52,855 nt of DNA from Bacteroidota bacterium (GTDB lineage: Bacteria > Bacteroidota > Bacteroidia > Bacteroidales > F082), in the NCBI GenBank assembly GCA_947505205.1, contig CANNKD010000003.1:1-52855 (forward strand), read 5' to 3'. The notes under the pieces were generated by a model. It was not told where the DNA came from. It made no database searches and saw only the letters and a program-made list of their open reading frames with translations. Position numbers and translations under genes: made by a program. Position 1 is the stretch's first letter, and every line of letters starts with the position of its first letter. This document shows, piece by piece, positions 12,331 through 52,855 of the stretch.

Positions 12331-12366
12331 TCAATAATTTATATTAACCTCAATTTTTATTATACA

Positions 12367-13392: not shown

Positions 13393-13436
13393 GCTTTCTG
13401 TAAAATTATTAATGATTAAATTAAAGACATTATAAA

Positions 13437-15098: not shown

Positions 15099-15110
15099 AA
15101 CACAAATTTT

Positions 15111-15116
15111 AGGAGG
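15111..15116 (+). promoter_or_regulatory. Strong Shine-Dalgarno site for gldN
   Basis: A full AGGAGG sits 5 nt before the ATG at 15122. Bacteroidota seldom use Shine-Dalgarno pairing and no other gene in this window shows one this strong, so it fixes the gldN start and may raise its translation relative to gldM. Confidence 0.75.
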
Positions 15117-15121
15117 AAAAC

Positions 15122-29119: not shown

Positions 29120-29120
29120 A

Positions 29121-30053: not shown

Positions 30054-30056
30054 ACC

Positions 30057-31163: not shown

Positions 31164-31180
31164 GACCTAACCGAGATACG

Positions 31181-32077
31181 ATGCATGGAAAAATCATGCT
31201 GTTTGGCGAGTACAGCCTGATTTGCGGTTCGATGGGGCTGGTGGTTCCATTCAAAAGTGTTTCAGCTTCGTGGGATTGGATAAAATTGAATGAAAACAAT
31301 GCTGATTCACGGAAATCAAATGCGCATTTATTTCGGTTTTTAGAATTTTTAAACCAGAAGCCAACCTTTCAAAAGGTATTGCAGCTTGAACAATTTCAAC
31401 AAGATTTGGAAAAAGGTTTGTATTTAAAGTCTTCAATTACACAAGGTTACGGAATAGGAAGTTCTGGCGCTTTAGTAGCAGCTCTGTTTAAACGATATTC
31501 ACAAAATGAGAATTCCCATACGATTATAGAGTTGCGAGCTATTTTTTCAGAAATGGAATCCTATTTCCATGGAAGCAGTTCGGGTATCGATCCAATTAGT
31601 TGTTATTTGGGTGAAACGGTTTTGATTGATGAAAATGGCGATATTAGCTGTATAGAAAATCCAATTCCGGGTGATGAAAGCAGTATTAAAGCCTATTTGA
31701 TTGATACTAAAATGCCACGTGAAACGGCTCATTTGATGCGTTATTTTGATGAACAATTGCATCAGTATCGATTCTTTAAAAAGATGCAGGATCAGCTTAT
31801 TCCGGCTGTTAATTCGGCTATTCAACAATTTAGTAATGACGAAACAGATGCCTTTTTCCAATCATTAAAAACAATTTCGGATTTTGAACTAACATATCTC
31901 GAACCCATGGTGCCATTGGTGTTACGCGAATTTTGGCAGGCTGGTTTGAGTACCGAAAACTATTTCATGAAACTTTGTGGTGCAGGTGGTGGGGGCTATA
32001 TATTGGTGTTTGCAAGGGAGGATTCTGCCTTGGATGAGATCGGAAATCATTTTGAGATGATAAATTTAAGCGAATAG
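31181..32077 (+). CDS. Mevalonate kinase
   Basis: A 298-aa GHMP kinase expected to phosphorylate mevalonate at O5. ATG at 31181 starts the conserved HGKIMLFGEYSLICGSMGL; a TTG at 31160 overlapping the mvaD stop is possible but adds nothing conserved. Further motifs are the ATP loop QGYGIGSSGALVAA near residue 90, HGSSSGIDPISCYLG carrying the catalytic Asp region, and the C-terminal LCGAGGGGYILVFA. It completes HMG-CoA reductase, GYDIA kinase, mvaD and mevalonate kinase; only HMG-CoA synthase and the acetyl-CoA thiolase step are absent from this locus. Which of the two kinases acts first is inferred from family resemblance. Confidence 0.88.
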   Translation: MHGKIMLFGEYSLICGSMGLVVPFKSVSASWDWIKLNENNADSRKSNAHLFRFLEFLNQKPTFQKVLQLEQFQQDLEKGLYLKSSITQGYGIGSSGALVAALFKRYSQNENSHTIIELRAIFSEMESYFHGSSSGIDPISCYLGETVLIDENGDISCIENPIPGDESSIKAYLIDTKMPRETAHLMRYFDEQLHQYRFFKKMQDQLIPAVNSAIQQFSNDETDAFFQSLKTISDFELTYLEPMVPLVLREFWQAGLSTENYFMKLCGAGGGGYILVFAREDSALDEIGNHFEMINLSE

Positions 32078-37537: not shown

Positions 37538-39061
37538 TTAATTTTCAGCCATTTTGTGCTGCAGCACTTCTGAAAGTGGTCTTTTGGTCAGTGCTGACTC
37601 AATCCATGCGGTGAAATTAAATATTTGAAGTATTTTGTTCTCAAACACATCATGTTCTATCTCGTCTAATTCCTTTTTCGATTTATTCCAGACTTGCAGG
37701 CGTTTAAAGGATTGAGATGGAACAGGTTTGCTTAAAAACTTAAAGAGGTATCTTTCAATTCTATAATTGCGCTCATATCCGCCAATATCGCGCATTAAGG
37801 TTCTGATTTCGTATTTGATTAAATCGATGTTGTTTAGTTTGTAAAGAATGATTAGATTTACCAATCGAATTGTACGAAATAAGGGTAACGAAAAATAGTA
37901 TTTGCCTTGTAAAATAATCTGATTCAAGAACTTATGTGCTTTTTGATATTCACCGTTTCCAAAAAACACCAATGAAGTATATAAGCTCAATTCAGCCTGA
38001 CGAGAGCGTGGAAGGGAATTAAATTTATCGTAAAGTGACTCTTTATAGCTTGCCATCAGCGCATTGCACGCCGAAAAGTCGCCACCATCAAGAAATGGAA
38101 AAAGCTCGTATAAAAAGGTCGTGCAAACAACATTCAGCTTGAAACTCGCCGATTCGCACTCAATACTTTTTAATTGAGTAACAAAATAAGTCATTCCCTC
38201 GTAATTTCTGATGCTTCGCAAGCTTTCGAGAATTCCTTCAAGCGTGTGCAAATAGTAAACGGGCGGCTTGTTCCAGAGATGTTTGTTTTCTTCAAACAGA
38301 TTGTTCAATTCGTAATATGAGTTTAAGGCCGACTGGTTGTCGCCAACACTGATTAAGTAGTTTGATTGAAATAATTGGTGCAGTTTATTGATTTCAAAAT
38401 TATCAACATTGAGCGATGAAACCAGACTTATTTCGCTATAAACCAAATCATTCAATTCATCCTTTTGTTTTTGCGTGCGGATCTGACTCTTATTTAAAAT
38501 ACGGTGTTTAAGGATTTCGTATAAAGACGATTGCTCATTGATTTTTCGAATATATTTTAGTGATTCAGTAATCCTGAAATGCTTTTTGAGCAAGGTTTTC
38601 TCGTCAATTTGTGGAAATCCGGCTGCCAACAAATAATCCAGTTCGAGTCGCAATGCCAAAAGCATAACATTATGATTTTCAAACTTCTCGGCTTGTTTAA
38701 TCACTTCTTCAAGAATATCCAGGCTTTCATTTATGAGTGATTTCTCGTACAATATTCGCGCATGGATAATTCTTTTATACAGATACGATAAGCTATCCTG
38801 ATCCTTTCTTAGATTGAGCATGGTTTCCAGCAGCAGTTCAAAAAGGTATTTTCCTGCGGTTTCGAAGTTTGCTTTTGGATTCTGGTTTGTGAACAATTGC
38901 TGAAATTCCACTTTAGTCAACGAAGGATGTTTATCGATAATATCATATAACATCAGATAATCAGGTAGTTGTTTATTGCGTCCGGATCTCAATCTAAATG
39001 CTTTCTTTTCAGCATGTGATAAAGAATGAACTAATGTTATAAGTGACTGGATTTTCGACAT
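37538..39061 (-). CDS. Large all-helical protein of unknown function
   Basis: A 507-aa cytoplasmic protein; no signal peptide or membrane helix. It is predicted almost wholly alpha-helical with TPR-like hairpins (e.g. EKSLINESLDILEEVIKQAEK, FFGNGEYQKAHKFLNQIIL). The N-terminus (SLSHAEKKAFRL and YLMLYDIIDKH) resembles a recurring class of Bacteroidota helical proteins that I have seen annotated only as hypothetical. No catalytic or DNA-binding motif is apparent. It is divergent from the ribokinase-SusCD operon, with 260 AT-rich bases between, so it could regulate that operon, but nothing in the sequence shows this. Confidence 0.65.
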   Translation of the reverse strand: MSKIQSLITLVHSLSHAEKKAFRLRSGRNKQLPDYLMLYDIIDKHPSLTKVEFQQLFTNQNPKANFETAGKYLFELLLETMLNLRKDQDSLSYLYKRIIHARILYEKSLINESLDILEEVIKQAEKFENHNVMLLALRLELDYLLAAGFPQIDEKTLLKKHFRITESLKYIRKINEQSSLYEILKHRILNKSQIRTQKQKDELNDLVYSEISLVSSLNVDNFEINKLHQLFQSNYLISVGDNQSALNSYYELNNLFEENKHLWNKPPVYYLHTLEGILESLRSIRNYEGMTYFVTQLKSIECESASFKLNVVCTTFLYELFPFLDGGDFSACNALMASYKESLYDKFNSLPRSRQAELSLYTSLVFFGNGEYQKAHKFLNQIILQGKYYFSLPLFRTIRLVNLIILYKLNNIDLIKYEIRTLMRDIGGYERNYRIERYLFKFLSKPVPSQSFKRLQVWNKSKKELDEIEHDVFENKILQIFNFTAWIESALTKRPLSEVLQHKMAEN

Positions 39062-39271
39062 GGTATTCTGGCTTTTATTTGCCTGATAATTTGCTTAATT
39101 ACTGAAGAACTTCTGTTTCGTGATGTATTTAATGAAGTAAATGTATGAAATATTTTAAATTATTAATTATCTTATATTTATAATATTTTAAAATACAGAA
39201 TATCAAATATATAGTATCATTTAGTGAATAATATATCCATATTTAGATTATTGAAATTGATAAATTATTGA

Positions 39272-39302
39272 TTTTTTTTATCGGGATAACCAGATAAATT
39301 TG
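39272..39302 (+). promoter_or_regulatory. Putative promoter of the ribokinase-SusCD operon
   Basis: TAAATTTG (39295-39302) matches TAnnTTTG exactly. A TTTT at 39272-39275 lies 19 nt upstream in place of the -33 TTTG. The transcript would start near 39309, giving a leader of about 13 nt before the ribokinase GTG at 39322. No operator repeats are evident. Confidence 0.4.
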
Positions 39303-39321
39303 TCAAAAAAATATTAGAAAA

Positions 39322-40239
39322 GTGAATTCAGGTAAAAAAATCGTAGTAGTAGGCAGCTGTAACACCGATATGGTAATTAAGGCGGAGCGCCTTCCCATTC
39401 CGGGTGAAACCATTCTTGGTGGAACTTTCTTGATGAATCCAGGCGGTAAAGGCGCCAATCAGGCAGTTGCTGCAGCCCGTTTGGGCGGTGATGTCACGTT
39501 GATCTCAAAAACAGGAAATGATGTATTCGGAAAGCAATCTGTAGTTTTGTATAACTCTGAAAACGTGAATACTGATTTCATTTCATCCGATTCAAAGCTG
39601 CCATCGGGTGTTGCCTTAATTACTGTTGATTCGATGGGCGAAAATTGCATCGTGGTCGCTTCGGGCGCTAATGCAAATTTGAAACCTTCTGATATTGACA
39701 AAGCGATGAAAGCAATTGATAACAGTGATTTTGTTTTAATGCAGCTCGAAATACCACTTGAAACGGTTGAATATGTTGCCGAAATTGCTTCAGCAAAAGG
39801 GAAAAAAGTAATTTTGAATCCCGCTCCTGCCCGTGCTTTATCCAACTCACTTTTAAAACACCTCGATCTCATTATTCCAAATAAAAGTGAAGCCGAAATC
39901 TTATCCGGAATCAAGGTAACTGACATCGAAACAGCCAAACAGGCTGCTGAAATTATTGCCAAAAAAGGTGTTGATAATGTGGTCATTACACTCGGATCGC
40001 AAGGTGCGCTCATCCGTGAAAAAGATTCATTTCAATTTGTTGCCGCACATAAAGTGGAAGCAGTTGACACAACCGCTGCCGGCGATACTTTTTGTGGCGC
40101 ACTTTGTGTCGGCCTTTCGGAAGGAAAAACGATTTTAGAGTCGGTGAAACTTGCTGTCAGAGCCTCAGCAATTACAGTTACACGTATGGGAGCGCAGTCG
40201 TCGCTGCCTTACAGATCAGAATTATCTTTAATAGAATAA
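39322..40239 (+). CDS. rbsK: Ribokinase
   Basis: A 305-aa PfkB-family kinase converting D-ribose to ribose 5-phosphate in the cytoplasm. Ribokinase marks: GSCNTDMV near residues 11-18 with the ribose-binding Asp, GGKGANQAVAAARLGG (41-56), and DTTAAGDTFCGAL (about 248-260) with the catalytic Asp and anion hole. It starts with GTG at 39322 because no nearby ATG keeps the conserved first strand. It leads an operon with SusC/SusD, ADP-ribosylglycohydrolases and esterases; the following gene starts 19 bp after its stop. Ribokinase at the head of a SusCD locus argues that ribose is the sugar released. Confidence 0.9.
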   Translation: MNSGKKIVVVGSCNTDMVIKAERLPIPGETILGGTFLMNPGGKGANQAVAAARLGGDVTLISKTGNDVFGKQSVVLYNSENVNTDFISSDSKLPSGVALITVDSMGENCIVVASGANANLKPSDIDKAMKAIDNSDFVLMQLEIPLETVEYVAEIASAKGKKVILNPAPARALSNSLLKHLDLIIPNKSEAEILSGIKVTDIETAKQAAEIIAKKGVDNVVITLGSQGALIREKDSFQFVAAHKVEAVDTTAAGDTFCGALCVGLSEGKTILESVKLAVRASAITVTRMGAQSSLPYRSELSLIE

Positions 40240-40258
40240 TCAATTTAATTAATTGATA

Positions 40259-43213
40259 ATGAAACAAATATATTCACATAGAAGCATGAATTACAGCCAC
40301 ATAAGATTTGTATTTGGACTGTTTTTAGCTCTGCTAATTGTCGGTTTGCAGGCACAATCTGTCGAACAGCTAACGATAAACGGAACAGTTATGGATGCCG
40401 GAAACGGCCTTACACTTCCAGGTGTGAGCGTTTCGACAAAAGGTACCACAATGGGAACCGTGACCGATTTTGATGGAAAATTCAATATCACAGTGGCTAA
40501 AGGAACCGCCCTTGTATTTTCGTTTATTGGATACGAAAGTTCAGAAGTTATCACCGTAAAAAGTGAAACGATCCTGATTAAACTTAAAATAGCAATTGCC
40601 TCACTCGATGAGGTCGTTGTTATAGGTTATGGAAACACCACAAAAAAGGAAGTTACCGGATCGATTGCAACCGTAAAGTCAGAAGATTTTAACAAGGGAG
40701 CTTACAACAATCCTATGGGATTATTGCAGGGAAAAGTAGCAGGTTTAACGATTGTGAAGCCGAATGGTGCTGATCCTCAAGCTGGTTACAATATCATTCT
40801 GCGAGGAACAAATACGCTCACTTCGGGGCAGGGACCACTGGTTATTATTGATGGAGTTGCCGGAGCAGATATGAAAAACATTAGTCCGGATGAAATTGAA
40901 TCTATGGACGTATTGAAAGATGGTGCGGCCGCTGCCATTTACGGAACGCGTGGCTCGAATGGCGTTATCATCATCACAACGAAAAGAGCAAAACAGGGAT
41001 CGGCCAAGGTTGAATATACAGGTCAGCTATCGGTACAGGTTGCGCCTCGTGGAGTTGCAAATCTTTCGGCAGAAGAGTTCCGTCAGGCAATTGAACAATA
41101 TGCGCCCGATAAGGTTGGAAATATCTACGATGCAAATACCGATTGGTTCAGCGAGATAACACGCACCACGCCTTTCAGTATGAAAAATAATCTCGCATTC
41201 AGTGGCGGAACCGACAATTTTTCGCACCGGACAACGATTTATATTGACAATGCCAATGGTTTACTCAAAGACAATGAGTCGAATAAATATCTTTTGCGAT
41301 CAAATGTTTCACAAAAAGCACTGGGCGGTCTGTTGTTGCTCGATTACAATCTCAGTTACAGTATGCGCAATTACAAACCTGCAAATTATGACCTTTTTTA
41401 TCAATCATTCATCCGGAATCCAACAAGTTCAGTTTATGACCCGGAAAACACTTATTCAGGTGGTTATACCACTTTGGAAGGGATAGATTATTATAATCCT
41501 GTGGCCATGCTCAACGAACGTGTTCGTGAAGGAAAAACCACTGATGCAGGTGGAAATGTGCGTGCAACATTAAATTTGACCAAAGACTTAAGATGGATCA
41601 ATTTCCTTTCGATTGAACAATCGGAATGGGAAGATTTATCATACAAAACCAAATATTACCCAAGTATGTTAGGCAAAGGAGGAGAAGCAGAAATCAGTAA
41701 TGGCCGGAGCAGCAATCTGCAATACGAAAGTACATTCAATTATACAAAATCAGTCGGAAATCATAATTTTCAAGGATTGGCCGGCTATTCATTTCAGGAA
41801 TTAGAGTCGAATACATCATATATGGTCAATTCAGGATTCGATTCTGATTTGTATGGACCACATAATATTGGAGCCGGTTCGGCTTTGGGAGAAGGAAAAG
41901 CCGAAATGGGTTCCTACAAAGAAAGTAGCCGTCTCATCTCATTTTTTGGTCGTGTGATGTACAATTTCAATGAACGCTATCTTGCAGCAGCTTCGTTGCG
42001 GCGCGAAGGATCGTCGAAGTTTGGAGAGAATAACAAATGGGGATGGTTTCCATCAGCAAGTTTTGGATGGCGCATCAATAAGGAAGAATTTATGACTGAT
42101 GTAAAATGGGTGAATGACCTGAAATTTCGTGTCGGTTATGGCGTTACCGGAAATCAAAATTTCGGAAATTATAAATCATTGATTATGATGGGAGTAGCCG
42201 GTAAATTCTTTTATAACGGCGAATGGATAAATACCTATGAACCAACATCAAATCCAAATCCGGATTTACGTTGGGAAAAGAAACAAGAACTGAATGCAGG
42301 AGTTGATTTTGCTATATTTAACAATCGTTTCAGCGGCGCGTTGGATTATTATTACCGTCAAAGCACCGACCTGCTTTATACCTATAATGTGCCTTATCCA
42401 CCTTATATTTATCCTGAATTATTCACCAATGTTGGTACAATCAGCAATCAGGGAATTGAACTTACAGTGAATGCATTAGCGATGAAAAAAGGTAAATTTA
42501 TTTGGAATACGACACTCACTTTTAGTAAAAATATCAATAAACTGGTCAAATTTACAAATGACGAATTCACAAGTAAATACATCGAAACCGGCTGGCTTGG
42601 CGGCGCATTTCCCCTCTACGCCATGCGCGTTGAAGAAGGAAAACCTTTGGGGACATTCTATGGTCCTGTTTGGCTCGGCCTCGATGAAAATGGGTATGAC
42701 AAATTCAAAAATGCCAATCCAATCGGAAAAGTAAATCCGGAAGACTGGGAACCTATTGGTAACGCAAATCCTTTCTGCAGCATCGGCTGGAGCAATTCAT
42801 TCAACTATAAGTATTGGGACATGAATCTTTCATTGCGTGCCAATATTGGAGGTCAGGTGTTGAATATGTACCGTTTATATTACGAAAACTGGAAAAGTTT
42901 AGGTCGTAATATAGTTCACACACAACTCGAAACGCCTGAGTTTGTTGGAAACGGACAATATTCGTCGAAATATGTTGAAAATGCCACGTTTGTGAAACTT
43001 GATAATATCTCGGTAGGATACAATTTTCCGATGCAATCAAAATACATTTCTAAACTGAGGGTGAATCTGACTGCCCAGGATGTGTTTACAATCACTGGTT
43101 ACAAAGGTCTCGATCCCGAAGTGAATTTGAGTGGATTAGAGCCTGGAATTGAGCGTTTGTACTATTATCCACGTACAACTTCGGTCACATTAGGTGTAAA
43201 TGTTACATTTTAA
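40259..43213 (+). CDS. SusC/RagA family TonB-linked outer membrane importer
   Basis: A 984-aa TonB-dependent outer-membrane transporter. ATG at 40259 is chosen; TTG at 40253 adds only two residues, and ATG at 40286 is an alternative that shortens the signal region (MNYSHIRFVFGLFLALLIVGLQAQ). An N-terminal carboxypeptidase-regulatory-like domain (about 35-115; NGTVMDAGNGLTLPGVSVSTKG) precedes a TonB box DEVVVIGYG and a plug domain with GLLQGKVAGLTIV and GTRGSNGVIIITTK, typical of SusC. The barrel follows and ends LGVNVTF with the terminal aromatic. The length is normal. Its substrate is not readable from sequence; the operon context suggests a ribose-bearing molecule. Confidence 0.94.
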   Translation: MKQIYSHRSMNYSHIRFVFGLFLALLIVGLQAQSVEQLTINGTVMDAGNGLTLPGVSVSTKGTTMGTVTDFDGKFNITVAKGTALVFSFIGYESSEVITVKSETILIKLKIAIASLDEVVVIGYGNTTKKEVTGSIATVKSEDFNKGAYNNPMGLLQGKVAGLTIVKPNGADPQAGYNIILRGTNTLTSGQGPLVIIDGVAGADMKNISPDEIESMDVLKDGAAAAIYGTRGSNGVIIITTKRAKQGSAKVEYTGQLSVQVAPRGVANLSAEEFRQAIEQYAPDKVGNIYDANTDWFSEITRTTPFSMKNNLAFSGGTDNFSHRTTIYIDNANGLLKDNESNKYLLRSNVSQKALGGLLLLDYNLSYSMRNYKPANYDLFYQSFIRNPTSSVYDPENTYSGGYTTLEGIDYYNPVAMLNERVREGKTTDAGGNVRATLNLTKDLRWINFLSIEQSEWEDLSYKTKYYPSMLGKGGEAEISNGRSSNLQYESTFNYTKSVGNHNFQGLAGYSFQELESNTSYMVNSGFDSDLYGPHNIGAGSALGEGKAEMGSYKESSRLISFFGRVMYNFNERYLAAASLRREGSSKFGENNKWGWFPSASFGWRINKEEFMTDVKWVNDLKFRVGYGVTGNQNFGNYKSLIMMGVAGKFFYNGEWINTYEPTSNPNPDLRWEKKQELNAGVDFAIFNNRFSGALDYYYRQSTDLLYTYNVPYPPYIYPELFTNVGTISNQGIELTVNALAMKKGKFIWNTTLTFSKNINKLVKFTNDEFTSKYIETGWLGGAFPLYAMRVEEGKPLGTFYGPVWLGLDENGYDKFKNANPIGKVNPEDWEPIGNANPFCSIGWSNSFNYKYWDMNLSLRANIGGQVLNMYRLYYENWKSLGRNIVHTQLETPEFVGNGQYSSKYVENATFVKLDNISVGYNFPMQSKYISKLRVNLTAQDVFTITGYKGLDPEVNLSGLEPGIERLYYYPRTTSVTLGVNVTF

Positions 43214-43231
43214 TTAAAGCACAGTACAGTC

Positions 43232-44740
43232 ATGAAAACCATAAAATTTACTATTTACGCCACTTGTCTGACGTTTGTGTTCATACTCGCATCCTGCACC
43301 AAACTCGATGAGGTAGTTTATTCAGAAATTCCACTCGATAAGTTTTTCCAATCTGAAGAAGAAGTGTTGATGAATGCCGGACGAGCATACACTAAACTAC
43401 AACGTTATCCTGAAGAATTCAGTTTGTGGACGCTCACCCAGATCGCTTCCGACGAAATGGTGGCACCGGGCCGCGATGATGGCTGGGTGTGGGACAATGG
43501 CCGTTGGGATGAAATTCACACACATCAGATCGATCCAAATAATAAGATTCTCACTTTAGCCTGGAACTCTGTTTTCGAAGGTATAAGCGCTTGTAATGAA
43601 GTGATTTACGAAACAGAACAAACTGATATTACTTTTCCTGAAAAGGATCGAATTGTAGCAGAAATAAAAATACTCAGGGCGTTTTTGTATTACTGGGGAA
43701 TCGACAATTGGGGTAATATTCCATTTTCTGTTGATTTTACCGATAAAAATCTTTCAGAACAGAAAAATCGTCAGTTCATTTTCGATTATATTGAACAGGA
43801 TATTCTTGACAACATCGAAATACTTCAGGCAACTCCCCAACCGTCTTATTATGGTCGTGTTACGCAGGGAATGGCTTATACATTGCTCGCAAAATTGTAT
43901 ATAAATGCGCAGGAATGGATTGGCGTGAATAAATTTCAGGAGGCTGTTGATGCCTGTGATAAAGTGATCGCAATCAATGGTTATCAAATCGAAAATGACT
44001 ACTTTACAAATTTTAAAGTACACAACGAAAGCTCTCTGGAAAATATTTTTGTAATCCCGATGCATTCAGTTTACACCAAAGATCGTTTTTATTGGTATAC
44101 ACTCACACTCAACGATGCGAGCCGCGCCACTTTCAATTTCAAAGGTCAGATGTGGGATGAATTTATTTTAGAACCCGGTTTTTTAGATAAGTTTTCGGAG
44201 AACGATTTACGTAAGAAATCTTTCCTTTTTGGACAGCAAAAAGACAAAGAAGGTGTTGATATCATCATCGATGGTGAACCCTTTATATACACACCTACGG
44301 TGGATAATTATATGGCACGCAAAAAATGGGAAGGTGCACGTTGCGCCAAATATGAATACCAGGATGGCCTGGAATATTATGCTACAGATATGGAAAACGA
44401 CTTCGTGTTGTTTCGCCACTCCGACGTGCTTTATACAAAATTAGAAGCTTTGTGGAGATTGGGTCGTGGAGGAGAAATGCTCGCTGATGCCGATTTACAA
44501 AAAATCAGAACCCGTGCCGGCCTCGAGCCACTTCAACTTTCTGACTTAACGGATGCTGAGTTTTTAAATGAATTGGGTCGCGAATTTGCCTGGGAAGGTC
44601 ATCGCCGTCAGGATCAAATTCGTTTTGGTGTTTGGGGAAATAGCGGGTGGAACAAACCTGTTTCTGGTGCAAATGCCAAACTTTTCCCTATTCCACAATC
44701 CATTTTAAATACAAATTCAAACCTTGTCCAAAATCCATAA
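43232..44740 (+). CDS. SusD/RagB family surface nutrient-binding lipoprotein
   Basis: A 502-aa lipoprotein that caps the SusC barrel and binds the substrate at the cell surface. The signal peptide ends in LASC with acylated Cys22. The SusD pattern is present: an N-terminal LDEVVYSEIPLDKFFQSEEEVLMNAGRAY, the helical TPR-like core (ILRAFLYYWGIDNWGNIPF, YTLLAKLYINAQEW), and a C-terminal LNELGREFAWEGHRRQDQIRFG, the classic end of the family. It follows SusC after 18 bp and precedes the first ADP-ribosylglycohydrolase by 4 bp, so all are co-transcribed. Confidence 0.95.
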   Translation: MKTIKFTIYATCLTFVFILASCTKLDEVVYSEIPLDKFFQSEEEVLMNAGRAYTKLQRYPEEFSLWTLTQIASDEMVAPGRDDGWVWDNGRWDEIHTHQIDPNNKILTLAWNSVFEGISACNEVIYETEQTDITFPEKDRIVAEIKILRAFLYYWGIDNWGNIPFSVDFTDKNLSEQKNRQFIFDYIEQDILDNIEILQATPQPSYYGRVTQGMAYTLLAKLYINAQEWIGVNKFQEAVDACDKVIAINGYQIENDYFTNFKVHNESSLENIFVIPMHSVYTKDRFYWYTLTLNDASRATFNFKGQMWDEFILEPGFLDKFSENDLRKKSFLFGQQKDKEGVDIIIDGEPFIYTPTVDNYMARKKWEGARCAKYEYQDGLEYYATDMENDFVLFRHSDVLYTKLEALWRLGRGGEMLADADLQKIRTRAGLEPLQLSDLTDAEFLNELGREFAWEGHRRQDQIRFGVWGNSGWNKPVSGANAKLFPIPQSILNTNSNLVQNP

Positions 44741-44744
44741 TTGC

Positions 44745-46739
44745 ATGAGAATTCGAATTAATATATTGATAATCATTTTGTTTACTTCGATTTCTATTTT
44801 CGCTCAAAAGAAGAATGAAGTTGTTTCGTCAAAAATTTCAATTGAAATGAGCGTGTTGCATGATAAAATTGCAGCAGCCTGGATCGGACAGATGATTGGA
44901 AATATGTACGGATTGCCACATGAAGGTAAATACGTAAATGCTCCAGGTGCCGAAAAATGGCCTTATGGCTACAGCAAAAGTTTGGACAAATTAAAAAAAT
45001 ATGAGGGCGCTTTTTCGGATGATGATACCGATGTTGAATATATGTATCTGCTTCAGATGCTGAAGTTTGGCCCAGAACCTACGTATGTTCAATTAAGCAA
45101 AGCCTGGATGTATCATATCCGCGATCGTGTTTGGCTGGCCAACCGTGCCGCACTTGGATTGATGCATTTTGGATATACGCCACCTTTCACTGGAATGAAG
45201 GATTTGAATCCACATTGGTTTCAGATTGACCCTCAATTGATTAATGAAATTTGGGCTGTTACAGCACCGGGCATGGTAAATTATGCTGCTGTTAAATCGG
45301 AATGGGCTGCCCGCATCACTAGCGATGATTGGGGTGTGGAGCCAACCATTTTTTATGGTGCCATGTATTCGGCAGCTTTCTTCGAAAATGATATCGATAA
45401 GTTGATTGAGATTGGCAAAAACGCACTTCCAGAAAATGGTCGGTTCAAAAATACTGTAACCGAAATGATTACGCTTCATAATAAATATCCCAAATGGCAG
45501 GATGCGTGGGCTGAAATGGCACAAAAATATTATGTAAACGAACCACAAATGACGAAAACCATCTGGAATGCCAATCTAAATGGTGCTTGTGCCGTGTTGG
45601 CCATGCTATATGGTGAAGGAAATTTTCAGCGAACACTCGATTTATCTTGCGCCATGGGTTTCGATGCTGATAATCAAGCAGCTACTGTTGGCGGATTGAT
45701 GGGAGTAATTTACGGAATGAAAGGATTACCAGAAAATCTTTACCTGCCCATTGAAGGTTGGAAGCTTCCGTTTAACGATAAATACATCAATATCACACGA
45801 TTTGAGTTGCCTGATGCAAAAATTTCGCAGATTATTGACAGCACACTAAAAATGGCGATTAATTTAGTTAAACAATATGGCGGCTCAGTTTCGGGCCGAA
45901 AAGGCAAAGAAATAGTGACCATCAATCCTAATGCTACCTTTAATGCGCCGCTTGAGTTTTATGTCGGTCCAAAACCGGCTTTGGAAGTTGGTAAAGCAAT
46001 TGATTTTGATTTTTATACTTCAGCAAACAAACAGTATGAATGGTCATTGAAGGAAGGAAATTTACCCGAAGGAATTAGCTTTGAAAATGGGAAAATATTT
46101 GGAACACCTATTAAATCAGGTTATTACACAATTTCACTATGGATAAGTGATGGAAAACAAAACATCTCAAAATCGTTTGAATTATTGGTTCGAAATCAAA
46201 ATATTGCCTTAACAGCCGATACCATTTTTGCAAATGTGCGAGAACTTAACAATGCTGTGTTGGATTCATGTTGGTTTACCTTTGGCAAGCCAATTTATGC
46301 GCCAAATGTAAACGTGATTAATGACGGAATAACATACGGCGAGGGGCAGATTTTTTATAGTTTGGCTGCCAAAGCAAATATTCCAAAAGTGGATTATTAT
46401 GGATTTGGATGGAAAACCGAACAAAATATTAGTATGATTGCTTTTCAAAGTGGTTGTCTGGAAGAATTTGGTGGCTGGTTTACCTCGCTTAATGTGCAGT
46501 ATCTCAACGATAAAGGAAAATGGGTTTCGGTAAGTAATTTGAAAATGAGCCCGGAATTACCCGCAAGTGATGTTGTTTTTATCCAGCCTCAAAATGCTGA
46601 ATATATTTTGAGTTTCGAATCGGTTTCTACCAAAGGAATTCGCATAATTGGTGATGCAGCTGTTGCAAAACATTGGAACAAATACACCAAAAAAGTTTCA
46701 GGTTTTACTTCTATTACTGAGTTAAGTGTTTATGAATAA
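44745..46739 (+). CDS. Exported ADP-ribosylglycohydrolase family protein with C-terminal Ig-like region
   Basis: A 664-aa exported protein; ATG at 44745 is used so that the signal peptide (INILIIILFTSISIFAQ) begins at once. The ARH/DraG-like domain covers about residues 35-390. Metal-site motifs are SDDDTDVE (Asp92-94, Thr95, Asp96) and GFDADNQAATVGGLMG (Asp307, Asp309), close to the canonical DDT and DxD pairs. Next comes a putative Ig domain (about 400-485; LPEGISFENGKIFGTP is the hallmark) and then a beta-rich C-terminal region of about 170 aa that may bind a carbohydrate. It would hydrolyse N- or O-ADP-ribosyl or related ribosyl bonds outside the cytoplasm. 4 bp after susD. Confidence 0.82.
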   Translation: MRIRINILIIILFTSISIFAQKKNEVVSSKISIEMSVLHDKIAAAWIGQMIGNMYGLPHEGKYVNAPGAEKWPYGYSKSLDKLKKYEGAFSDDDTDVEYMYLLQMLKFGPEPTYVQLSKAWMYHIRDRVWLANRAALGLMHFGYTPPFTGMKDLNPHWFQIDPQLINEIWAVTAPGMVNYAAVKSEWAARITSDDWGVEPTIFYGAMYSAAFFENDIDKLIEIGKNALPENGRFKNTVTEMITLHNKYPKWQDAWAEMAQKYYVNEPQMTKTIWNANLNGACAVLAMLYGEGNFQRTLDLSCAMGFDADNQAATVGGLMGVIYGMKGLPENLYLPIEGWKLPFNDKYINITRFELPDAKISQIIDSTLKMAINLVKQYGGSVSGRKGKEIVTINPNATFNAPLEFYVGPKPALEVGKAIDFDFYTSANKQYEWSLKEGNLPEGISFENGKIFGTPIKSGYYTISLWISDGKQNISKSFELLVRNQNIALTADTIFANVRELNNAVLDSCWFTFGKPIYAPNVNVINDGITYGEGQIFYSLAAKANIPKVDYYGFGWKTEQNISMIAFQSGCLEEFGGWFTSLNVQYLNDKGKWVSVSNLKMSPELPASDVVFIQPQNAEYILSFESVSTKGIRIIGDAAVAKHWNKYTKKVSGFTSITELSVYE

Positions 46740-46750
46740 GTTAGTTAATA

Positions 46751-48373
46751 ATGAATAATCAAAATATAAAATTACTTTTTGTACTGCTGATCAGTTTTAT
46801 TTTTTCGATCAATTGCAAAGCGCAATTCGAAAAAATGAGTGAAACTGTACTTACAAGCGAACAATTGCAAAACAAAATCAAAGGCGGTTGGGCTGGCCAA
46901 ACGATTGGAGTGGTTTATGGAGCGCCGGTCGAATTTAAATATCAGGGTTCCATTATTCCTGATTATCAACCTATTCCATGGCGTGAAGGCTACGTGAAAT
47001 ATTGGTGGGATAAAAAACCTGGCTTATTCGATGATATTTATACCGATTTGAATTTCGTGAATGTTTTCGAAAAATATGGTTTGGATGTTTCCATGGACAC
47101 TATTGCAAACCATTGGGCATCAACAGAATATCATCTGGCGCATGCAAATCAGGCTTCCAGATACAACATTTTGAACGGAATAATTCCACCTCAATCTGGA
47201 TATTGGAAAAACAATCCGCATGCCGATGATATTGATTTTCAGATTGAAGCTGATTTCATTGGTTTAATGGCGCCTGGAATGGTGAATTCGGCTACCGAAA
47301 TCGCTAATCGTGTTGGACATATCATGAACAGTGGCGATGGCTGGTATGGCGGTGTGTTTGTTTCGGCATTGTATTCGTTGGCCTTCACAACCAATAATGT
47401 TGACGAAATTGTGGAGCAATCCCTGAAAACCATTCCCGAAGGCACAAAATTTCATGATTGCATTGCTGATGTGGTTAAATATCACAAACAATTTCCTGAC
47501 GACTGGCAGGCATGCTGGTTCGAGATTCAAAAACGTTGGAACAATGATGTTGGCTGCCCAAAAGGTTGCTTTTTATCGTTTAATATTGATGCAAAAATCA
47601 ATTCGGCTTATGTGGCGATTGGCTTGCTTTACGGCAAGGGAGATTTCACGAAATCAATCGATATTGCAACCCGCTGCGGACAAGATGCAGATTGTAATCC
47701 GGCTACTGTTGGTGGGGTTTTGGGCGTAATGTTGGGATATGATCGTATTCCTGCTTTTTGGTTGAAACCCTTGCAGGAGATTGAAACTTTGAATTTTGAA
47801 GGAACACCGATGTCATTAAATCGTGCCTACGAATTGAGTTTTAAACATGCTACAAAAACGATTCAACTTGCAGGCGGAAAGTTTACTGACGATAAATTTT
47901 CAATTCCTTACCAAATGCCTGTTGCTGTTGCGTTTGAGCAAAATTTTGAAAGAACTTTTCCTGTTTTCCGCGATCGTTTCGACCGTTCTTTTACCAATGT
48001 ATTAACCTATGAGTTTAGCGGAAACGGTTATATTTTTTATGGAAACCTTGTGAAAAAATCTAAAATTGATGAAAACTATATCGACCGTGTTTCGAAACGT
48101 GTTGGCTCAGAAGTTTTTGGTCTGGCTGAACTGACCGATCCTTATGTAGCTGAATTAGAGGTATATATTGATGGAAAACTTGACGAAACGATTAAACTTC
48201 CTATGAAAAACACATCGAGACGGCTTGAGCCGTCTTGGAAATATCAATTGAACGAAGGCAAACATACTGTTTATTTGAAATGGTTGAATCAGCATCCGGA
48301 TTATGAAATCAGAATCAATGATATCATGATATATTCAGAAAATCAACCTGTTAGCAATCTTCCTAAAAATTAA
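46751..48373 (+). CDS. Exported ADP-ribosylglycohydrolase family protein, DDxYxD subtype (copy 1)
   Basis: A 540-aa exported protein with signal peptide MNNQNIKLLFVLLISFIFS and likely cleavage near KAQ. The ARH-like domain opens KGGWAGQTIGVVYGAPVEF (45-62). Its first acidic motif reads FDDIYTD (Asp94, Asp95, Asp99) in place of the DDT run, while the second, GQDADCNPATVGG, keeps Asp312 and Asp314. A C-terminal beta-rich domain of about 140 aa (AELEVYIDGKLDETIKLP, LNEGKHTVYLKWLNQ) resembles an accessory binding domain. The next gene is a clear paralogue with identical motif spacing. The substrate is inferred to be a ribosyl bond, possibly not ADP-ribose itself given the altered motif. Confidence 0.82.
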   Translation: MNNQNIKLLFVLLISFIFSINCKAQFEKMSETVLTSEQLQNKIKGGWAGQTIGVVYGAPVEFKYQGSIIPDYQPIPWREGYVKYWWDKKPGLFDDIYTDLNFVNVFEKYGLDVSMDTIANHWASTEYHLAHANQASRYNILNGIIPPQSGYWKNNPHADDIDFQIEADFIGLMAPGMVNSATEIANRVGHIMNSGDGWYGGVFVSALYSLAFTTNNVDEIVEQSLKTIPEGTKFHDCIADVVKYHKQFPDDWQACWFEIQKRWNNDVGCPKGCFLSFNIDAKINSAYVAIGLLYGKGDFTKSIDIATRCGQDADCNPATVGGVLGVMLGYDRIPAFWLKPLQEIETLNFEGTPMSLNRAYELSFKHATKTIQLAGGKFTDDKFSIPYQMPVAVAFEQNFERTFPVFRDRFDRSFTNVLTYEFSGNGYIFYGNLVKKSKIDENYIDRVSKRVGSEVFGLAELTDPYVAELEVYIDGKLDETIKLPMKNTSRRLEPSWKYQLNEGKHTVYLKWLNQHPDYEIRINDIMIYSENQPVSNLPKN

Positions 48374-48378
48374 CAAAC

Positions 48379-49944
48379 ATGACTAAATCATTAATATATC
48401 TTATTGTATTTATTCTACTGGTCTCATTTTCAACACAGGGTAACTTTTCTTACGCACAACTTCCGCAAAAGGTAGAAATGAGTTCCGGCACTTTAAAGGA
48501 TAAAATTAAGGGCGGTTGGGCTGGACAAACCATTGGTTGCACTTTTGGTGGGCCAACGGAATTCAAGTTTAAAGGCACCATGATTCAGGATTATCAAAAA
48601 ATGATTTGGTACGATGATTATATCAAAGAAACTTATGAAGTTGATCCGGGCTTGTATGATGACGTTTACCTCGATTTTACTTTTGTTGAAGTGCTTGAAA
48701 GAGTGGGATTGAATGCGCCGGCCGATTCATTTGCCGTTTCTTTTGCCCGCGACGATTACAAGCTGTGGCATGCCAATCAGGCGGCGCGTTACAATATTTT
48801 AAATGGAATCATGCCGCCAGCATCGGGCCATTGGCTGAATAATCCGCATGCTGACGATATCGATTTTCAGATTGAAGCCGATTTTGCAGGCATGATGTCG
48901 CCCGGAATGATTAATACCGCATCGGAAATATGTGACCGCACCGGACATATTATGAATTATGGCGATGGCTGGTATGGTGGCGTTTTTATGGCAGCAATGT
49001 ATGCAACTGCCTTTGTTTCAGATGATATCAATTTTATTGTTTCGCAAGGTTTAAAACCAATTCCTGAACAAAGCAGGTTTTATGCTGCCATTCATGATGT
49101 AATTGCGTGGCACAAGCAATATCCAACCAACTGGAAACAATGCTGGTTCGAGTTTGAGAAGAAGCATACTTCAGAAAAAGGTTGTCCGGAAGGTGTTTTC
49201 AATGCTTTCAATATCGATGCCAGCGTGAATGCTGCTTATGTGGTTATTGGGCTTCTTTATGGCGAAAAAGATTTCTTTAAAACCATGGATATCGCCACGC
49301 GTTGCGGTCAGGATTCTGATTGCAATCCGGCAACAGCAGCCGGTATTTTAGGTGTGATTCTTGGTTACAATAATATTCCGGCTTACTGGAAACCAGCGAT
49401 TGAACAAGTTCAGGATGTCAAATTCCCGTATTCTGAATTAACACTCAATCAGGTTTACGATTTGAGCTACAAACATGCTACGCAACTTATTGAACAAGAA
49501 GGTGGTAAAGTTAAAAATGATTTGGTTACAATCAAAGTTCAGAAACCTGAAATCTTGCGATTGGAACAATCTTTTGAAGGAATTTACCCAACAAAAGAGC
49601 TTTTAATTCGTACAGATCATCTGGATAACGATATCACAATCGACTTTGAAGGAGCTGGAATCGTGGTGTTGGGGAATGTGAAAAGTCAGTGTGCAGTTTC
49701 TAAAAGCGATTATGTGGCTCAGTTGGAAATATATATCGACGGTGTGAAAACCGACGAATTTCCAATGCCATACGATTATATCGTTCGCAAATATGATATT
49801 TACCATAACTATAATCTCGCACAAGGAAAACATCATCTGGAAGTGAAATGGGTGAATAAAAACCCTGATTTCAGGATGTATTTTCGCTCGTATGTGGTGT
49901 ATGACAAAGAACCTGCAAAATCCGGTCATCAAGAAATTAGATAA
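48379..49944 (+). CDS. Exported ADP-ribosylglycohydrolase family protein, DDxYxD subtype (copy 2)
   Basis: A 521-aa paralogue of the preceding protein, 5 bp downstream. Signal peptide MTKSLIYLIVFILLVSFST, likely cleavage near SYAQ. Landmarks occur at the same residue numbers as in copy 1: KGGWAGQTIGCTFGGPTEF (45-62), YDDVYLD (Asp94, Asp95, Asp99), and GQDSDCNPATAAG (Asp312, Asp314). Long stretches between are near-identical in pattern, such as NNPHADDIDFQIEADF and GDGWYGGVF. The C-terminal accessory beta domain is kept (QLEIYIDGVKTDEF, LAQGKHHLEVKWVNKNP). The pair probably arose by tandem duplication and now may differ in specificity. Confidence 0.82.
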   Translation: MTKSLIYLIVFILLVSFSTQGNFSYAQLPQKVEMSSGTLKDKIKGGWAGQTIGCTFGGPTEFKFKGTMIQDYQKMIWYDDYIKETYEVDPGLYDDVYLDFTFVEVLERVGLNAPADSFAVSFARDDYKLWHANQAARYNILNGIMPPASGHWLNNPHADDIDFQIEADFAGMMSPGMINTASEICDRTGHIMNYGDGWYGGVFMAAMYATAFVSDDINFIVSQGLKPIPEQSRFYAAIHDVIAWHKQYPTNWKQCWFEFEKKHTSEKGCPEGVFNAFNIDASVNAAYVVIGLLYGEKDFFKTMDIATRCGQDSDCNPATAAGILGVILGYNNIPAYWKPAIEQVQDVKFPYSELTLNQVYDLSYKHATQLIEQEGGKVKNDLVTIKVQKPEILRLEQSFEGIYPTKELLIRTDHLDNDITIDFEGAGIVVLGNVKSQCAVSKSDYVAQLEIYIDGVKTDEFPMPYDYIVRKYDIYHNYNLAQGKHHLEVKWVNKNPDFRMYFRSYVVYDKEPAKSGHQEIR

Positions 49945-49949
49945 ATATA

Positions 49950-51560
49950 ATGAACAGTAAATCAAAGGGAAATATTATTTTGTTTTTCGCTTTATTAGGC
50001 GTTCTTGCTTCAGGATTTGTTTCCTGCAAGAAAGATTTGCCTAAAGTGGAAGATCCAAAGCCTTTTGTTCGCTTACTGAAAAATCAACAGTTTAAGAGTA
50101 AATTGTTGCATCGTGATTTTGATTATGCCGTGTTGTTGCCAATAGAATATGAGGATTCAACGCAATCATTTCCAGTCGTTTACCTTTTGCATGGCTGGGG
50201 CGATGACGCAACTGCTTGGTACAACGATGGTTTGATTCAGTATTACGTTGACCAGAATGCGGCAAATACGGTTCCCATGATTTATGTGATGCCAAGTGGT
50301 TTCAATTCCTATTATGTGAATAAGTTTAATGGTCAATATCCTTATATGGATATGTTTGTAAATGAGTTAGTTCCAATGGTTGATTCTCTTTTTAGAACTA
50401 ATAAAAATGCTACACAACGTGCCGTGATGGGTTATTCCATGGGCGGTTTTGGCGCTATGATTTTACCGGTCAAAAATCCGGAAGTTTTCAAAACGGGTGT
50501 TGCGTTAAGCATGTCGTTCCGCACCAATGAACAGTATCTCAACGAAACACAAAGTGTTTTCGATTACCAATGGGCGCCCCTTTTTGGTGGTTCTGGAATG
50601 AGTGGTGAAGCACGTTTTACGGAATATTTTAAGGAAAATAGTCCGTTTCAATTTCTTCAAAATTCTGAAGATCAATCGATGATGGGATTGAATTTGTTTT
50701 TTGATTGTGGCGATGACGAAGAAAGTTTGTCCGAAACAAACAACGAATTGCATTCTATGTTACGAGACCGAAATATCCCACACGAATACCGCATGCGAAA
50801 TGGTTTCCATAACTGGGATTATTGGAAAAAATCACTGCCTGAAGCACTGAAATTTATTAGATATGCTGTTCAAAATATTCCATATCCATCACAAAACGAA
50901 CTTGTTAACTATGGTGCAGAAATTTCAGAAGATAGAATTGTAGAATTTCAGCTTGAAAATAGTTTTCAAAATTATCGTGTCGTATTGCCCGCTAATTACA
51001 CGAATGAATCCTCGGATTATCCTGTTATTTTGGTGTTTCACGAAAGCGAATTGAATGTTCCGCCGATGCCTTCCAACAAAATGTTGAGTTTGTTGAATAA
51101 CCAAATTCTGGCAACAAAACTACCTTCTTCAATTTTGGTAGAGGTGCCGGTTTTAGGAAGTGAAATTACGCTTGAAACCGCACAAAATATTATAAATGAA
51201 TTAGATATAAATTATCGGACAAGCAATAATCGCAATCAGTGGATTATGATTGGAAACCGAAGTGGTGGCAAAATTGCTTATGACTTGATTCCTCAACTTT
51301 CCGAAAAAATTCATACCTGTTTGTTGTTTGATGCCCAACTTCCGGAAAATCCAACAGCGGATGGTGGAAGTTTGACTTATTACCTCGATATTTGCGATGA
51401 GGGACAAAATTACATGGCAAACAATGCACTTTATTTGAACTGCCGAAACAATGTAATTCCTCACGAATACCGCGTACGACAAGGCTTGGGAACGTATTTC
51501 GATTTTTTAAATGGCCTGTTTGAATCTGTAAGTTTCATGAATAAAAACCTAAAAGCGTAA
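49950..51560 (+). CDS. Exported double-domain esterase with degenerate second domain
   Basis: A 536-aa probable lipoprotein (signal ending FVSC, Cys26, 5 bp after the previous gene). Residues 45-310 form an esterase-D-like alpha/beta hydrolase: oxyanion HGWGDD (81-86), nucleophile GYSMGG with Ser163, a likely Asp in FFDCGDDE (about 252-256), and His287 in NGFHNW. Residues 320-536 repeat the fold in degenerate form: VVLPANY/YPVILVFHE, nucleophile-like GNRSGG with Ser438, then HEYRVRQGLG where the catalytic His aligns with Gly514. The second half is therefore probably inactive. The first could remove acyl or aromatic esters. It shares its layout with the next gene. Confidence 0.8.
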   Translation: MNSKSKGNIILFFALLGVLASGFVSCKKDLPKVEDPKPFVRLLKNQQFKSKLLHRDFDYAVLLPIEYEDSTQSFPVVYLLHGWGDDATAWYNDGLIQYYVDQNAANTVPMIYVMPSGFNSYYVNKFNGQYPYMDMFVNELVPMVDSLFRTNKNATQRAVMGYSMGGFGAMILPVKNPEVFKTGVALSMSFRTNEQYLNETQSVFDYQWAPLFGGSGMSGEARFTEYFKENSPFQFLQNSEDQSMMGLNLFFDCGDDEESLSETNNELHSMLRDRNIPHEYRMRNGFHNWDYWKKSLPEALKFIRYAVQNIPYPSQNELVNYGAEISEDRIVEFQLENSFQNYRVVLPANYTNESSDYPVILVFHESELNVPPMPSNKMLSLLNNQILATKLPSSILVEVPVLGSEITLETAQNIINELDINYRTSNNRNQWIMIGNRSGGKIAYDLIPQLSEKIHTCLLFDAQLPENPTADGGSLTYYLDICDEGQNYMANNALYLNCRNNVIPHEYRVRQGLGTYFDFLNGLFESVSFMNKNLKA

Positions 51561-51561
51561 T

Positions 51562-52855
51562 ATGAAGAAGTATTGTATTTCTTTCCTTTTATTTTTGCTT
51601 TTGGCGGGCAATTCTATCGTTTTCGGACAGCTGTTAACGATGGAAAGTCTTGCCATGCAAAGCAAGATTTTAAAACAGGAAGTACGCTTTTCGATTAACT
51701 TACCTGAGAATTATTATATTGACAATCAACGTTTTCCGGTAGTTTATCTGCTGCATGGTTTGGGCGACGACGAAACTTCGTGGCTCGAATATGGCCGGAT
51801 CGAACAAATTTCTTCTCAATTGATTGATGAAAATCAGATTGTTCCGATGATTTATGTGATGCCTCAGGGGTTTCGATGCTATTATTCAAATAGTTACGAT
51901 TCGAGTTTTATGTATCGCGATATGTTTGTGAAAGAATTTGTTCCTTATATAGATAGCATGTTTCACACAAAAGCCGAACAGAGCCAACGAGCCACAATTG
52001 GTTATTCGATGGGTGGTTTTGGTGCCATGATGTTACCCTTAAAAAACCCTGAAATGTTTGGTATTTCGGTTCCTTTGAGTATGTCGGTGCGAACCGATGA
52101 TCAGTATAAAACGGAAGAAGCTTCAGGTTGGGATAATCAATGGGGTAAAACATTTGGTGGCGTGGGTAAAATCGGAAACGACAGAATTACAGATTTCTAC
52201 AAACAAAATTCACCGTTTTATGTGTTAAGCAAATTCACCAATAAAATCATTCCATTGATTTATATGGTAAATGGTGACAAAGAAGAAACCTTAGCAAAAA
52301 GCAACGAAGAATTGAATATTTTGATGTGTAAATTGAATATTGAGCATGAATATCGCGTAAATGAAGGTGGTCATAGTTTCAAGTTTTGGAATGCAAATAT
52401 GCCAAATGCACTCAGGTTTGTGAGTGATGCTTTTGAAGGTAAAACTTATCGTGGTGATGAAGTGCAATATATTGAACCAATGCCTTTTAACGATGATCAA
52501 ATGAAACAAGTTTCAGCTAATGGCAAAACGATCACAGTTTTTTTGCCAGAGAGTTATCATCAGTCAAGCCGAAATTATCCGGTAATATATTTTGAGGGTG
52601 ATGAATTTGAAATTCATGCAATATGTGAGGTGACAAATAACTTGATAAAACAAAATATTATACCTGAAATGATTTTAGTTTTCTTTCGATCCGGGGATAT
52701 GGATGAAATGCGAAAAACCATTAAAGAAACTGAAAATCAATTTCGTATAAGGAAAGACTTTCGATTTAGAGCATATCTAACTCTATCTGGCAGCTCAATC
52801 TTAGAAGAAGTGAAAAAAGATGAATTTCGGATGATTGTACTTTCGGATGCAGGAA
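51562..52855 (+). CDS. Exported double-domain esterase paralogue (C-terminus cut by window edge)
   Basis: The frame is open from ATG at 51562, 1 bp after the previous stop, to the right edge (431 codons). Signal peptide MKKYCISFLLFLLLAGNSIVFGQ. The first domain is a complete esterase: HGLGDD (65-70), GYSMGG with Ser149, NGDKEE (Asp239), and GGHSFKFW with His271. From about residue 320 a second, diverged copy begins (VFLPESY, then YPVIYFEGDE); its nucleophile region reads LTLSGSS without a clear G-x-S-x-G. The architecture equals that of the upstream gene, so the pair is a tandem duplication. Both lie at the 3' end of the ribokinase-SusCD-ADP-ribosylglycohydrolase operon, which may continue beyond the window. 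Confidence 0.82.
   Translation, partial: MKKYCISFLLFLLLAGNSIVFGQLLTMESLAMQSKILKQEVRFSINLPENYYIDNQRFPVVYLLHGLGDDETSWLEYGRIEQISSQLIDENQIVPMIYVMPQGFRCYYSNSYDSSFMYRDMFVKEFVPYIDSMFHTKAEQSQRATIGYSMGGFGAMMLPLKNPEMFGISVPLSMSVRTDDQYKTEEASGWDNQWGKTFGGVGKIGNDRITDFYKQNSPFYVLSKFTNKIIPLIYMVNGDKEETLAKSNEELNILMCKLNIEHEYRVNEGGHSFKFWNANMPNALRFVSDAFEGKTYRGDEVQYIEPMPFNDDQMKQVSANGKTITVFLPESYHQSSRNYPVIYFEGDEFEIHAICEVTNNLIKQNIIPEMILVFFRSGDMDEMRKTIKETENQFRIRKDFRFRAYLTLSGSSILEEVKKDEFRMIVLSDAG

Follow-up and report, generated by a model that had tools for sequence, protein, structure and literature searches.

A ribose-utilisation locus of Bacteroidota lies beside citrate genes and may dismantle a ribose-citrate conjugate

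The stretch of DNA that we analysed (the window) is 52,855 nucleotides long and makes up contig C3 of a draft Bacteroidota genome (3.49 Mb, 288 contigs) in full, so its right edge is a contig break and not a gene boundary. At that edge lies a putative locus for ribose use, made up of eight consecutive, tightly spaced open reading frames (ORFs) on the plus strand (39322–52854) and a divergent regulator gene upstream of them. Its features are as follows.

37538–39061, minus strand: RusR-family regulator (BT2802 family ribose utilization protein; NCBIfam NF058569, 627 bits against a cut-off of 550)
39062–39321, no strand: RusR–ribokinase intergenic region, presumed control region; the divergent layout is also found in relatives
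39322–40239, plus strand: ribokinase (TIGR02152, NF008353; closest PDB matches are ribokinases)
40253–43213, plus strand: SusC/RagA TonB-dependent importer, ATG at 40259 (TIGR04056, 740 bits, cut-off 368)
43232–44740, plus strand: SusD-like surface lipoprotein (PF07980, PF14322)
44724–46739, plus strand: GHA, ADP-ribosylglycohydrolase-fold protein with an Ig-like (He_PIG) and a beta-rich C-terminal region, ATG at 44745 (PF03747)
46751–48373, plus strand: GHB, ADP-ribosylglycohydrolase-fold enzyme (PF03747)
48379–49944, plus strand: GHC, ADP-ribosylglycohydrolase-fold protein with a C-terminal beta-sandwich, kin by tree to such enzymes of other ribose loci (PF03747)
49950–51560, plus strand: EST1, PF00756 esterase with a GYSMGG serine in its first domain and a degenerate second half (Pfam; PDB match 7xrt)
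51562–52855, plus strand: EST2, second PF00756 esterase, broken off by the contig end (Pfam; matching C-terminus at C94:3–827)

Both the ORF list and Pfam, which found PfkB, SusC and SusD domains as well as the enzyme families above, agree with an earlier account made from the letters and ORFs of this DNA (the sequence-only reading), which had described eight same-strand genes of these families with spacings of 1–19 bp. Counted from ATG starts, the gaps are 19 bp (ribokinase–susC), 18 bp (susC–susD), 4 bp (susD–GHA), 11 bp (GHA–GHB), 5 bp (GHB–GHC), 5 bp (GHC–EST1) and 1 bp (EST1–EST2). That reading had also given signal peptides to every product but the kinase; judged by eye, without a signal-peptide program, all eight proteins except the kinase begin with a hydrophobic segment.

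The upstream gene encodes a 507-residue protein that matches the 'BT2802 family ribose utilization protein' model over its full length and matched no family in a Pfam scan. The sequence-only reading had reported no visible regulator, yet this gene lies within the window. The kinase exceeds the cut-offs of two ribokinase equivalog models (TIGR02152, 380 bits against 300; NF008353, 353 bits against 341). Because of these regulator and kinase matches, we place the locus with the ribose-utilisation systems (RUS), of which, judged by its genes, it is a variant of the RUS or rus type.

The founding paper on the rus polysaccharide utilization locus (PUL) of Bacteroides thetaiotaomicron is that of Glowacki et al. 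(2020). Our locus resembles that PUL (BT2803–BT2809) in its RusR-family regulator, ribokinase, SusC/SusD pair and a GRP/DMT-type permease just past the contig edge, as the earlier reading's comparison with rus had led one to expect. It differs in having no nucleoside hydrolase and in having three enzymes of the ADP-ribosylhydrolase (ARH)/DraG fold, two esterases and citrate genes alongside. RUS loci vary, yet to our knowledge the substrates of the variants are mostly unknown. The SusC and SusD proteins, putative counterparts of RusC and RusD, are only about 30% and 24% identical to the pair in a Bacteroides oleiciplenus RUS (L137). Six short Parabacteroides RUS loci (L154, L156, L158, L159, L162 and L163) all share RusR, ribokinase, a GHC-type PF03747 gene and the permease with the window, but none has SusCD, GHA, GHB, EST1/EST2 or citrate genes, and five of the six carry a nucleoside hydrolase. 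Another claim of the sequence-only reading is supported as well, that ribose is a product and is trapped as ribose 5-phosphate. According to PMC12596196, B. thetaiotaomicron RusR governs the Rus PUL BT2803–2809, including the putative ribose transporter rusT.

The operon appears to continue on contig C94, whose first 588 bases match the last 579 of the window at 92%, as would be expected if strain variation had broken the assembly. C94 carries, in order, the EST2 C-terminus, a 335-residue permease, a 256-residue DUF4595-like lipoprotein and then, convergent to these, CitMHS, CitF and a CitD-CitE fusion. The permease is of the GRP/ureide type (PF07168, 76 bits, cut-off 27), and an inner-membrane permease beyond the right edge is what the sequence-only reading had suggested. 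RusT-type permeases are present in 31 of the 34 loci whose contig reaches their place, L181 being counted as lacking one because an overlapping reverse ORF was called where the permease is expected. CitMHS scores 542 bits on TIGR00784, 'citrate:proton symporter' (cut-off 260), CitF scores 435 bits on PF04223 and is the sole CitF match in the source genome, and the fusion matches PF06857 and PF03328. A lipoprotein with a sub-threshold DUF4595 match (L225:1994–2764) lies 3' of the permease, and relatives occupy the same place in most loci of this type.

All three glycohydrolases exceed the PF03747 gathering cut-off of 26.2 bits in Pfam (102, 130 and 134 bits for GHA, GHB and GHC), and GHB and GHC are 45% identical. 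Residues 33–371 of the predicted GHC model (predicted local distance difference test score, pLDDT, 88) superpose on ARH3 (VIA Z 32.1, root-mean-square deviation 2.6 Å over 298 residues), and the C-terminal beta domain of the model resembles the N-terminal domain of CE2-type esterases (Z 9.8). The GHA model (pLDDT 79) matched ARH3 in Foldseek with an E-value of 2e-6, while its tail gave low-TM-score matches to sialidase- and galactosidase-type multidomain proteins. Single GHC and GHA sequences found no relatives among solved structures at an E-value of 0.01. A GHC/GHB profile searched against solved chains gave ARH-type matches, the best being 6dre at 4e-7; the one match of a GHA profile was weak (0.85) and was to a protein of a different kind.

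Like ARH3, ARH1, DraG and Tri1, whose fold the GHC catalytic domain shares with Z 27–32, the window enzymes have a motif 1 Glu and a motif 3 Asp pair; these align with DraG, MJ1187 and the 6dre hydrolase in a profile alignment that is weak in its N-terminal part, and the motif 2 Asp pair of the GHC/GHB profile aligns with MJ1187. Unlike those proteins, to which they are about 10–17% identical, they are apparently secreted, carry extra C-terminal beta domains, have the metal-ligand Thr replaced and score far under the equivalog cut-offs. We take the canonical dinuclear-metal motifs to be T/S-D-D-T and GxDxDT/S. In GHB, GHC and their relatives a Tyr or Phe precedes the motif 2 Asp pair, and GHA keeps S-D-D; the Thr/Ser position of motif 3 is Cys in GHB/GHC (Ser in 1 of 22 rows, L046) and Asn in GHA. 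The fourth PF03747 protein of the source genome, a paralogue on contig C72 (L001:1444–2559, G000), has canonical TDDT and GGDSDS motifs and by eye no signal peptide, and is likely to be a true intracellular ADP-ribosylhydrolase.

On a PF03747 tree, GHC falls with the enzymes of other RUS loci, including four of the six short Parabacteroides loci, the GHB proteins group together with support that is not firm (82/71), and GHA stands apart. From this placement, GHC appears to be the enzyme that RUS loci have in common, and GHA and GHB seem to distinguish this variant. Two further stretches (L150:558–2531 and L152:8034–9995) encode a GHA-like protein (50–51% identity) adjoining a RusR-type gene, with no GHB or esterases in the stretch examined, and are possibly an intermediate RUS form. 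ARH enzymes act on alpha-ribofuranosyl bonds, and the solved ARH3 complexes include, by their titles, alpha-1''-O-methyl-ADP-ribose and alpha-NAD+, which are alpha-ribosides. By analogy, alpha-ribofuranosyl bonds are the expected target of the secreted ARH-fold enzymes.

The sequence-only reading had proposed ADP-ribosylated proteins, poly-ADP-ribose, O-acyl-ADP-ribose or nucleotide debris as the target. The PF03747 family name and the ARH3 fold fit such a target, and PMC10434189 lists a nucleoside hydrolase in the B. thetaiotaomicron rus locus, but we think a RUS of this kind very improbable here. Pfam found no nucleoside hydrolase, nudix hydrolase, nucleotidase or phosphatase family in the eight genes or the next two on C94, and on curated ADP-ribosyl-hydrolase equivalog models GHA, GHB and GHC reach 15–20 bits against cut-offs of 337 (DraG, TIGR02662) and 490 (Tri1, NF041672). 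The metal motifs of the three are altered, unlike those of the C72 paralogue, and the citrate genes would be left unexplained. Hydrolysis of ADP-ribosyl-protein yields ADP-ribose and not the free ribose that a ribokinase needs, so that an ADP-ribose target is unsupported. We therefore rejected ADP-ribose, poly-ADP-ribose and nucleotide debris as the main substrate on the missing nucleosidase, nudix and phosphatase families and the low equivalog scores.

The two esterases, which are 40% identical to each other over 351 residues, score 116 (EST1) and 123 bits (EST2) on PF00756 (cut-off 22) and share the GYSMGG serine motif. Each has one intact-looking PF00756 domain and a degenerate second half weakly similar to the first. 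The best PDB match of EST1 is the ferulic acid esterase 7xrt, with SMGG, GDD and H kept in the alignment. This resemblance of EST1 and EST2 to CE1/feruloyl-type esterases suits a different substrate, an O-acylated ribofuranosyl polysaccharide (O-antigen, capsule or exopolysaccharide), from which the esterases would remove acetyl or similar groups and the ARH-fold enzymes would release ribose as ribofuranosidases, citrate merely co-occurring in the habitat or being co-fermented. SusCD pairs usually import oligosaccharides, and elsewhere a GHC relative is accompanied by esterases of other types in RUS-like loci (BD-FAE in L049, AXE1 in L052), both of which fit a polysaccharide; the ribofuranosyl residues known from polysaccharides are mostly beta, however, and ARH enzymes act on alpha bonds. 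We give this explanation about one chance in four. The RUS-like clusters L052:3926–8329 (the one with the AXE1-type esterase) and L053:11539–15880 combine ribokinase, a GHC relative and permease with sulfatases, hinting at a further ribose-bearing substrate.

Seven of the 295 genomes of the order, among them the source genome, have three PF03747 genes in tandem (the trio), and in all seven the genes run SusC-SusD-GHA-GHB-GHC-EST1-EST2, with the G043 contig stopping within the kinase and the window contig within EST2. RusR exceeds its cut-off in nine of the 295 genomes, and six of these nine have the gene block of the window; one genome, G006, has two RusR genes over the cut-off, on C61 (L250) and C238 (L251), each with its own kinase and permease. 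The block is also found in named Bacteroidota genomes in the same order, and such recurrence indicates that the arrangement in the window is not due to chance. The sequence-only reading had called this an enzyme set that it had not met: the set is real, but it is a recurring conserved block and no one-off. Among the best 80 of 115 relatives in a RusR-profile scan of named genomes, the records closest to the window are metagenome-assembled genomes titled Bacteroidetes or Bacteroidales, several of whose sample names we take to be those of lakes.

In a second layout (type II), RusR is followed by DASS-CitDE-CitF and then by ribokinase-SusC-SusD. It was found in eight loci, five from Cyclobacteriaceae and one each from Flammeovirgaceae, Gelidibacter and Lutibacter. 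Among its carriers, Gelidibacter japonicus Bio7-1 has the glycohydrolase trio in L177. Their 3' end is GHC-EST1-EST2 plus permease in seven of eight, L176 breaking off in EST1; GHA was found in all four genomes searched with it, and GHB lies beside GHC in the other four. Gene labels in the locus tables come from BLASTP against reference proteins, with Pfam and NCBIfam checks on representatives; on L114, Pfam confirmed the CitF and CitD-CitE of type II.

The constancy of the citrate genes was judged from 38 loci, of which three that end at contig ends (L189, L227, L240) were set aside. The 35 informative loci that remain were recognised by a GHC gene adjoining EST1; for G321, G322, G323, G326 and G329 the comparison covered GHB, which lies next to GHC there. 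L122 and L139, in which RusR lies beside DASS-CitDE and glycohydrolases were not seen, fall outside the 35; L139 is the 5' half of the locus, with its citrate genes, from Gelidibacter salicanalis PAMC21136. A citrate-type transporter, citrate lyase or both lie beside the block in 33 of the 35. In type I, the layout of the window, a citrate-type gene adjoins the operon in 25 of 27 loci (DASS in 18, CitMHS in 6 and CitDE-CitF with an MFS protein in 1), and in type II DASS-CitDE-CitF is on the 5' side in all eight. By contrast, a survey of 10 kb to either side of RusR, with several operons broken off, detected no DASS, CitMHS, CitDE or CitF in any of 20 RUS loci with the permease and without the GHA+GHB pair. 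Another four RUS-like loci (L241, L242, L250, L253) have no citrate gene either; L252, the same record as L165, and L251, which is broken off, were left out of that count. When the 35 GHC proteins are arranged in a tree, the label CitMHS has to change four times, and well-supported branches require all four changes; the window, with CitMHS, is sister to a DASS locus. That citrate stays constant while position, orientation and transporter family vary is our main argument for a link to citrate. CitF is also present in all 7 genomes with the glycohydrolase trio, against 117 of the 288 others in the order; in the six trio genomes besides the source it is on a different contig from the RUS operon. 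The comparison thus suggests citrate as an unexpected second product of the locus.

These findings bear on two other explanations. The polysaccharide explanation gives no account of citrate-type genes that recur in varied layouts and with unrelated transporters at this type of locus and are not seen at the 20 other RUS loci. In another, unlikely scenario, the citrate genes would have a role in acquiring metals or in anaerobic citrate fermentation at large, and would have been captured because RUS operons adjoin a site where insertions are frequent. In its favour, fermenting citrate is nothing unusual for anaerobes, and 124 of the 295 genomes of the order have CitF. Against capture, the citrate genes lie 5' in type II, 3' in type I and convergent in the source genome and G043, with differing transporters, a variety not given by a single insertion site, and the other RUS loci seen carry none.

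We favour, at somewhat better than even confidence, a RUS variant that dismantles a ribose-citrate conjugate, a substrate that we infer from the genes. The presence of a ribokinase implies that ribose is taken up in free form, and the permease belongs to a sugar/ureide type known from RUS loci. Likewise, genes for citrate transporters and citrate lyase point to uptake of citrate. The simplest substrate that would use all these activities is a ribose-citrate conjugate. It could be an oligomer or polymer or a smaller ribosyl-citrate, probably with alpha-ribofuranosidic and ester bonds. SusCD pairs generally serve oligomers, which makes larger material at least as likely as a small molecule. In the pathway that we propose, with a presumed order of cuts and a presumed bond for each enzyme, SusC and SusD would bind the conjugate and carry it across the outer membrane. 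The two extracytoplasmic esterases would cleave its ester bonds and release carboxylate groups (citrate), and the three ARH/DraG-fold glycohydrolases would cleave alpha-ribofuranosyl-oxygen bonds to give free ribose. Ribose would cross the inner membrane by the GRP/ureide-type permease and be phosphorylated by ribokinase. Citrate would enter by CitMHS in the source genome, or by DASS in most relatives, and be split by the citrate lyase CitDE-CitF. RusR would sense the sugar. Compared with other citrate lyase clusters, which likewise combine CitF, a CitD-CitE fusion and CitMHS or DASS, these genes differ in being tied to a ribose SusCD operon.

Several points weigh against this explanation. The activities of all enzymes of the locus are predicted, and the altered metal-ligand Thr positions make activity of GHA, GHB and GHC less than certain. 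Two type I loci (L183 and L239, of 27) have no citrate genes, and citrate lyase is present at 14 of 35 loci, the remaining citrate-type loci having only a transporter. Dicarboxylates and sulfate are also among the substrates of DASS transporters, and the top PDB match, the Na+/citrate transporter SLC13A5, is barely above a match to a dicarboxylate transporter. The citrate lyase of C94 is under the equivalog cut-offs throughout (CitF 482 against 501 on TIGR01584, citE 253 against 443 on TIGR01588, citD 58 against 63.5 on TIGR01608) while comfortably exceeding those of Pfam, although citF of L182 exceeds the first (517). The join of C3 to C94 is itself inferred from the 92% overlap in a draft genome and from synteny, and in the source genome the citrate genes, being convergent to the RUS operon, would not share its transcript. 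In type II, where the gap between CitF and ribokinase is 221–651 bp in the four loci read, a single transcript is only putative. No clear operator common to RUS and citrate promoters was found in a 12-mer scan of 42 RusR–kinase regions, which are AT-rich; the 12-mer AAAAATCAATAA occurs on either strand in 6 of the 42, against a maximum of 4 in 20 shuffles. The control of 20 RUS loci is less strong than the number would suggest, several operons being broken off before their far end. The transporter tree rests on one protein, GHC, the loci share ancestry and are not independent trials, and short branches mark L181/L230, L237/L238 and L233/L235 as near copies. The CitMHS label is only mildly clustered on that tree (an equally low value in 27 of 500 shuffles), consistent with transporters having been exchanged repeatedly.

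A bolder form of the ribose-citrate explanation, to which we give about one chance in four, is a shared dedicated machine of environmental Bacteroidota for an undescribed alpha-ribofuranose-citrate polymer, in which the ARH/DraG fold would have been turned three times into secreted alpha-ribofuranosidases. That polymer would have alternating glycosidic and ester bonds, chemically in the spirit of ribocitrin. Ribocitrin is a Streptomyces dextransucrase inhibitor with a presumed ribose-citrate structure. It is a small molecule that would join both proposed products and may be a precedent for a ribose-citrate compound. PMC13136089 reports its tentative identification by liquid chromatography–mass spectrometry in a freshwater-sediment Streptomyces. 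In the open-licence literature, which covers few subscription papers, we found no paper on ribosyl-citrate, none on a dextransucrase inhibitor made of citric acid and ribose, none tying an ADP-ribosylglycohydrolase to PULs and none on citrate lyase beside SusC and ribose genes. An ADP-ribosylglycohydrolase together with ribokinase, SusC and ribose came up in one paper, on iron, and ribofuranosyl polysaccharides together with citric acid in one review, on mushrooms.

By naming citrate as a second product, the neighbouring genes turn 'some ribose-bearing molecule' into a specific and testable prediction, for which the Gelidibacter strains with the locus are candidate test organisms. If the prediction is true, environmental bacteria consume an unrecognised ribose-citrate natural product or polymer, and the spread of the locus would imply that such a polymer, or a family of ribosyl-citrates, is widespread where its carriers live. 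It would also be the first extracellular substrate class for secreted proteins of the ADP-ribosylglycohydrolase fold, which are usually annotated as ADP-ribose enzymes.

Elsewhere in the window, four adjacent genes at 10957–15970 resemble by eye the GldK-GldL-GldM-GldN gliding/type IX secretion set. Three consecutive GHMP-type ORFs at 29049–32077 resemble, again by eye, mevalonate-pathway enzymes (diphosphomevalonate decarboxylase, mevalonate kinase).

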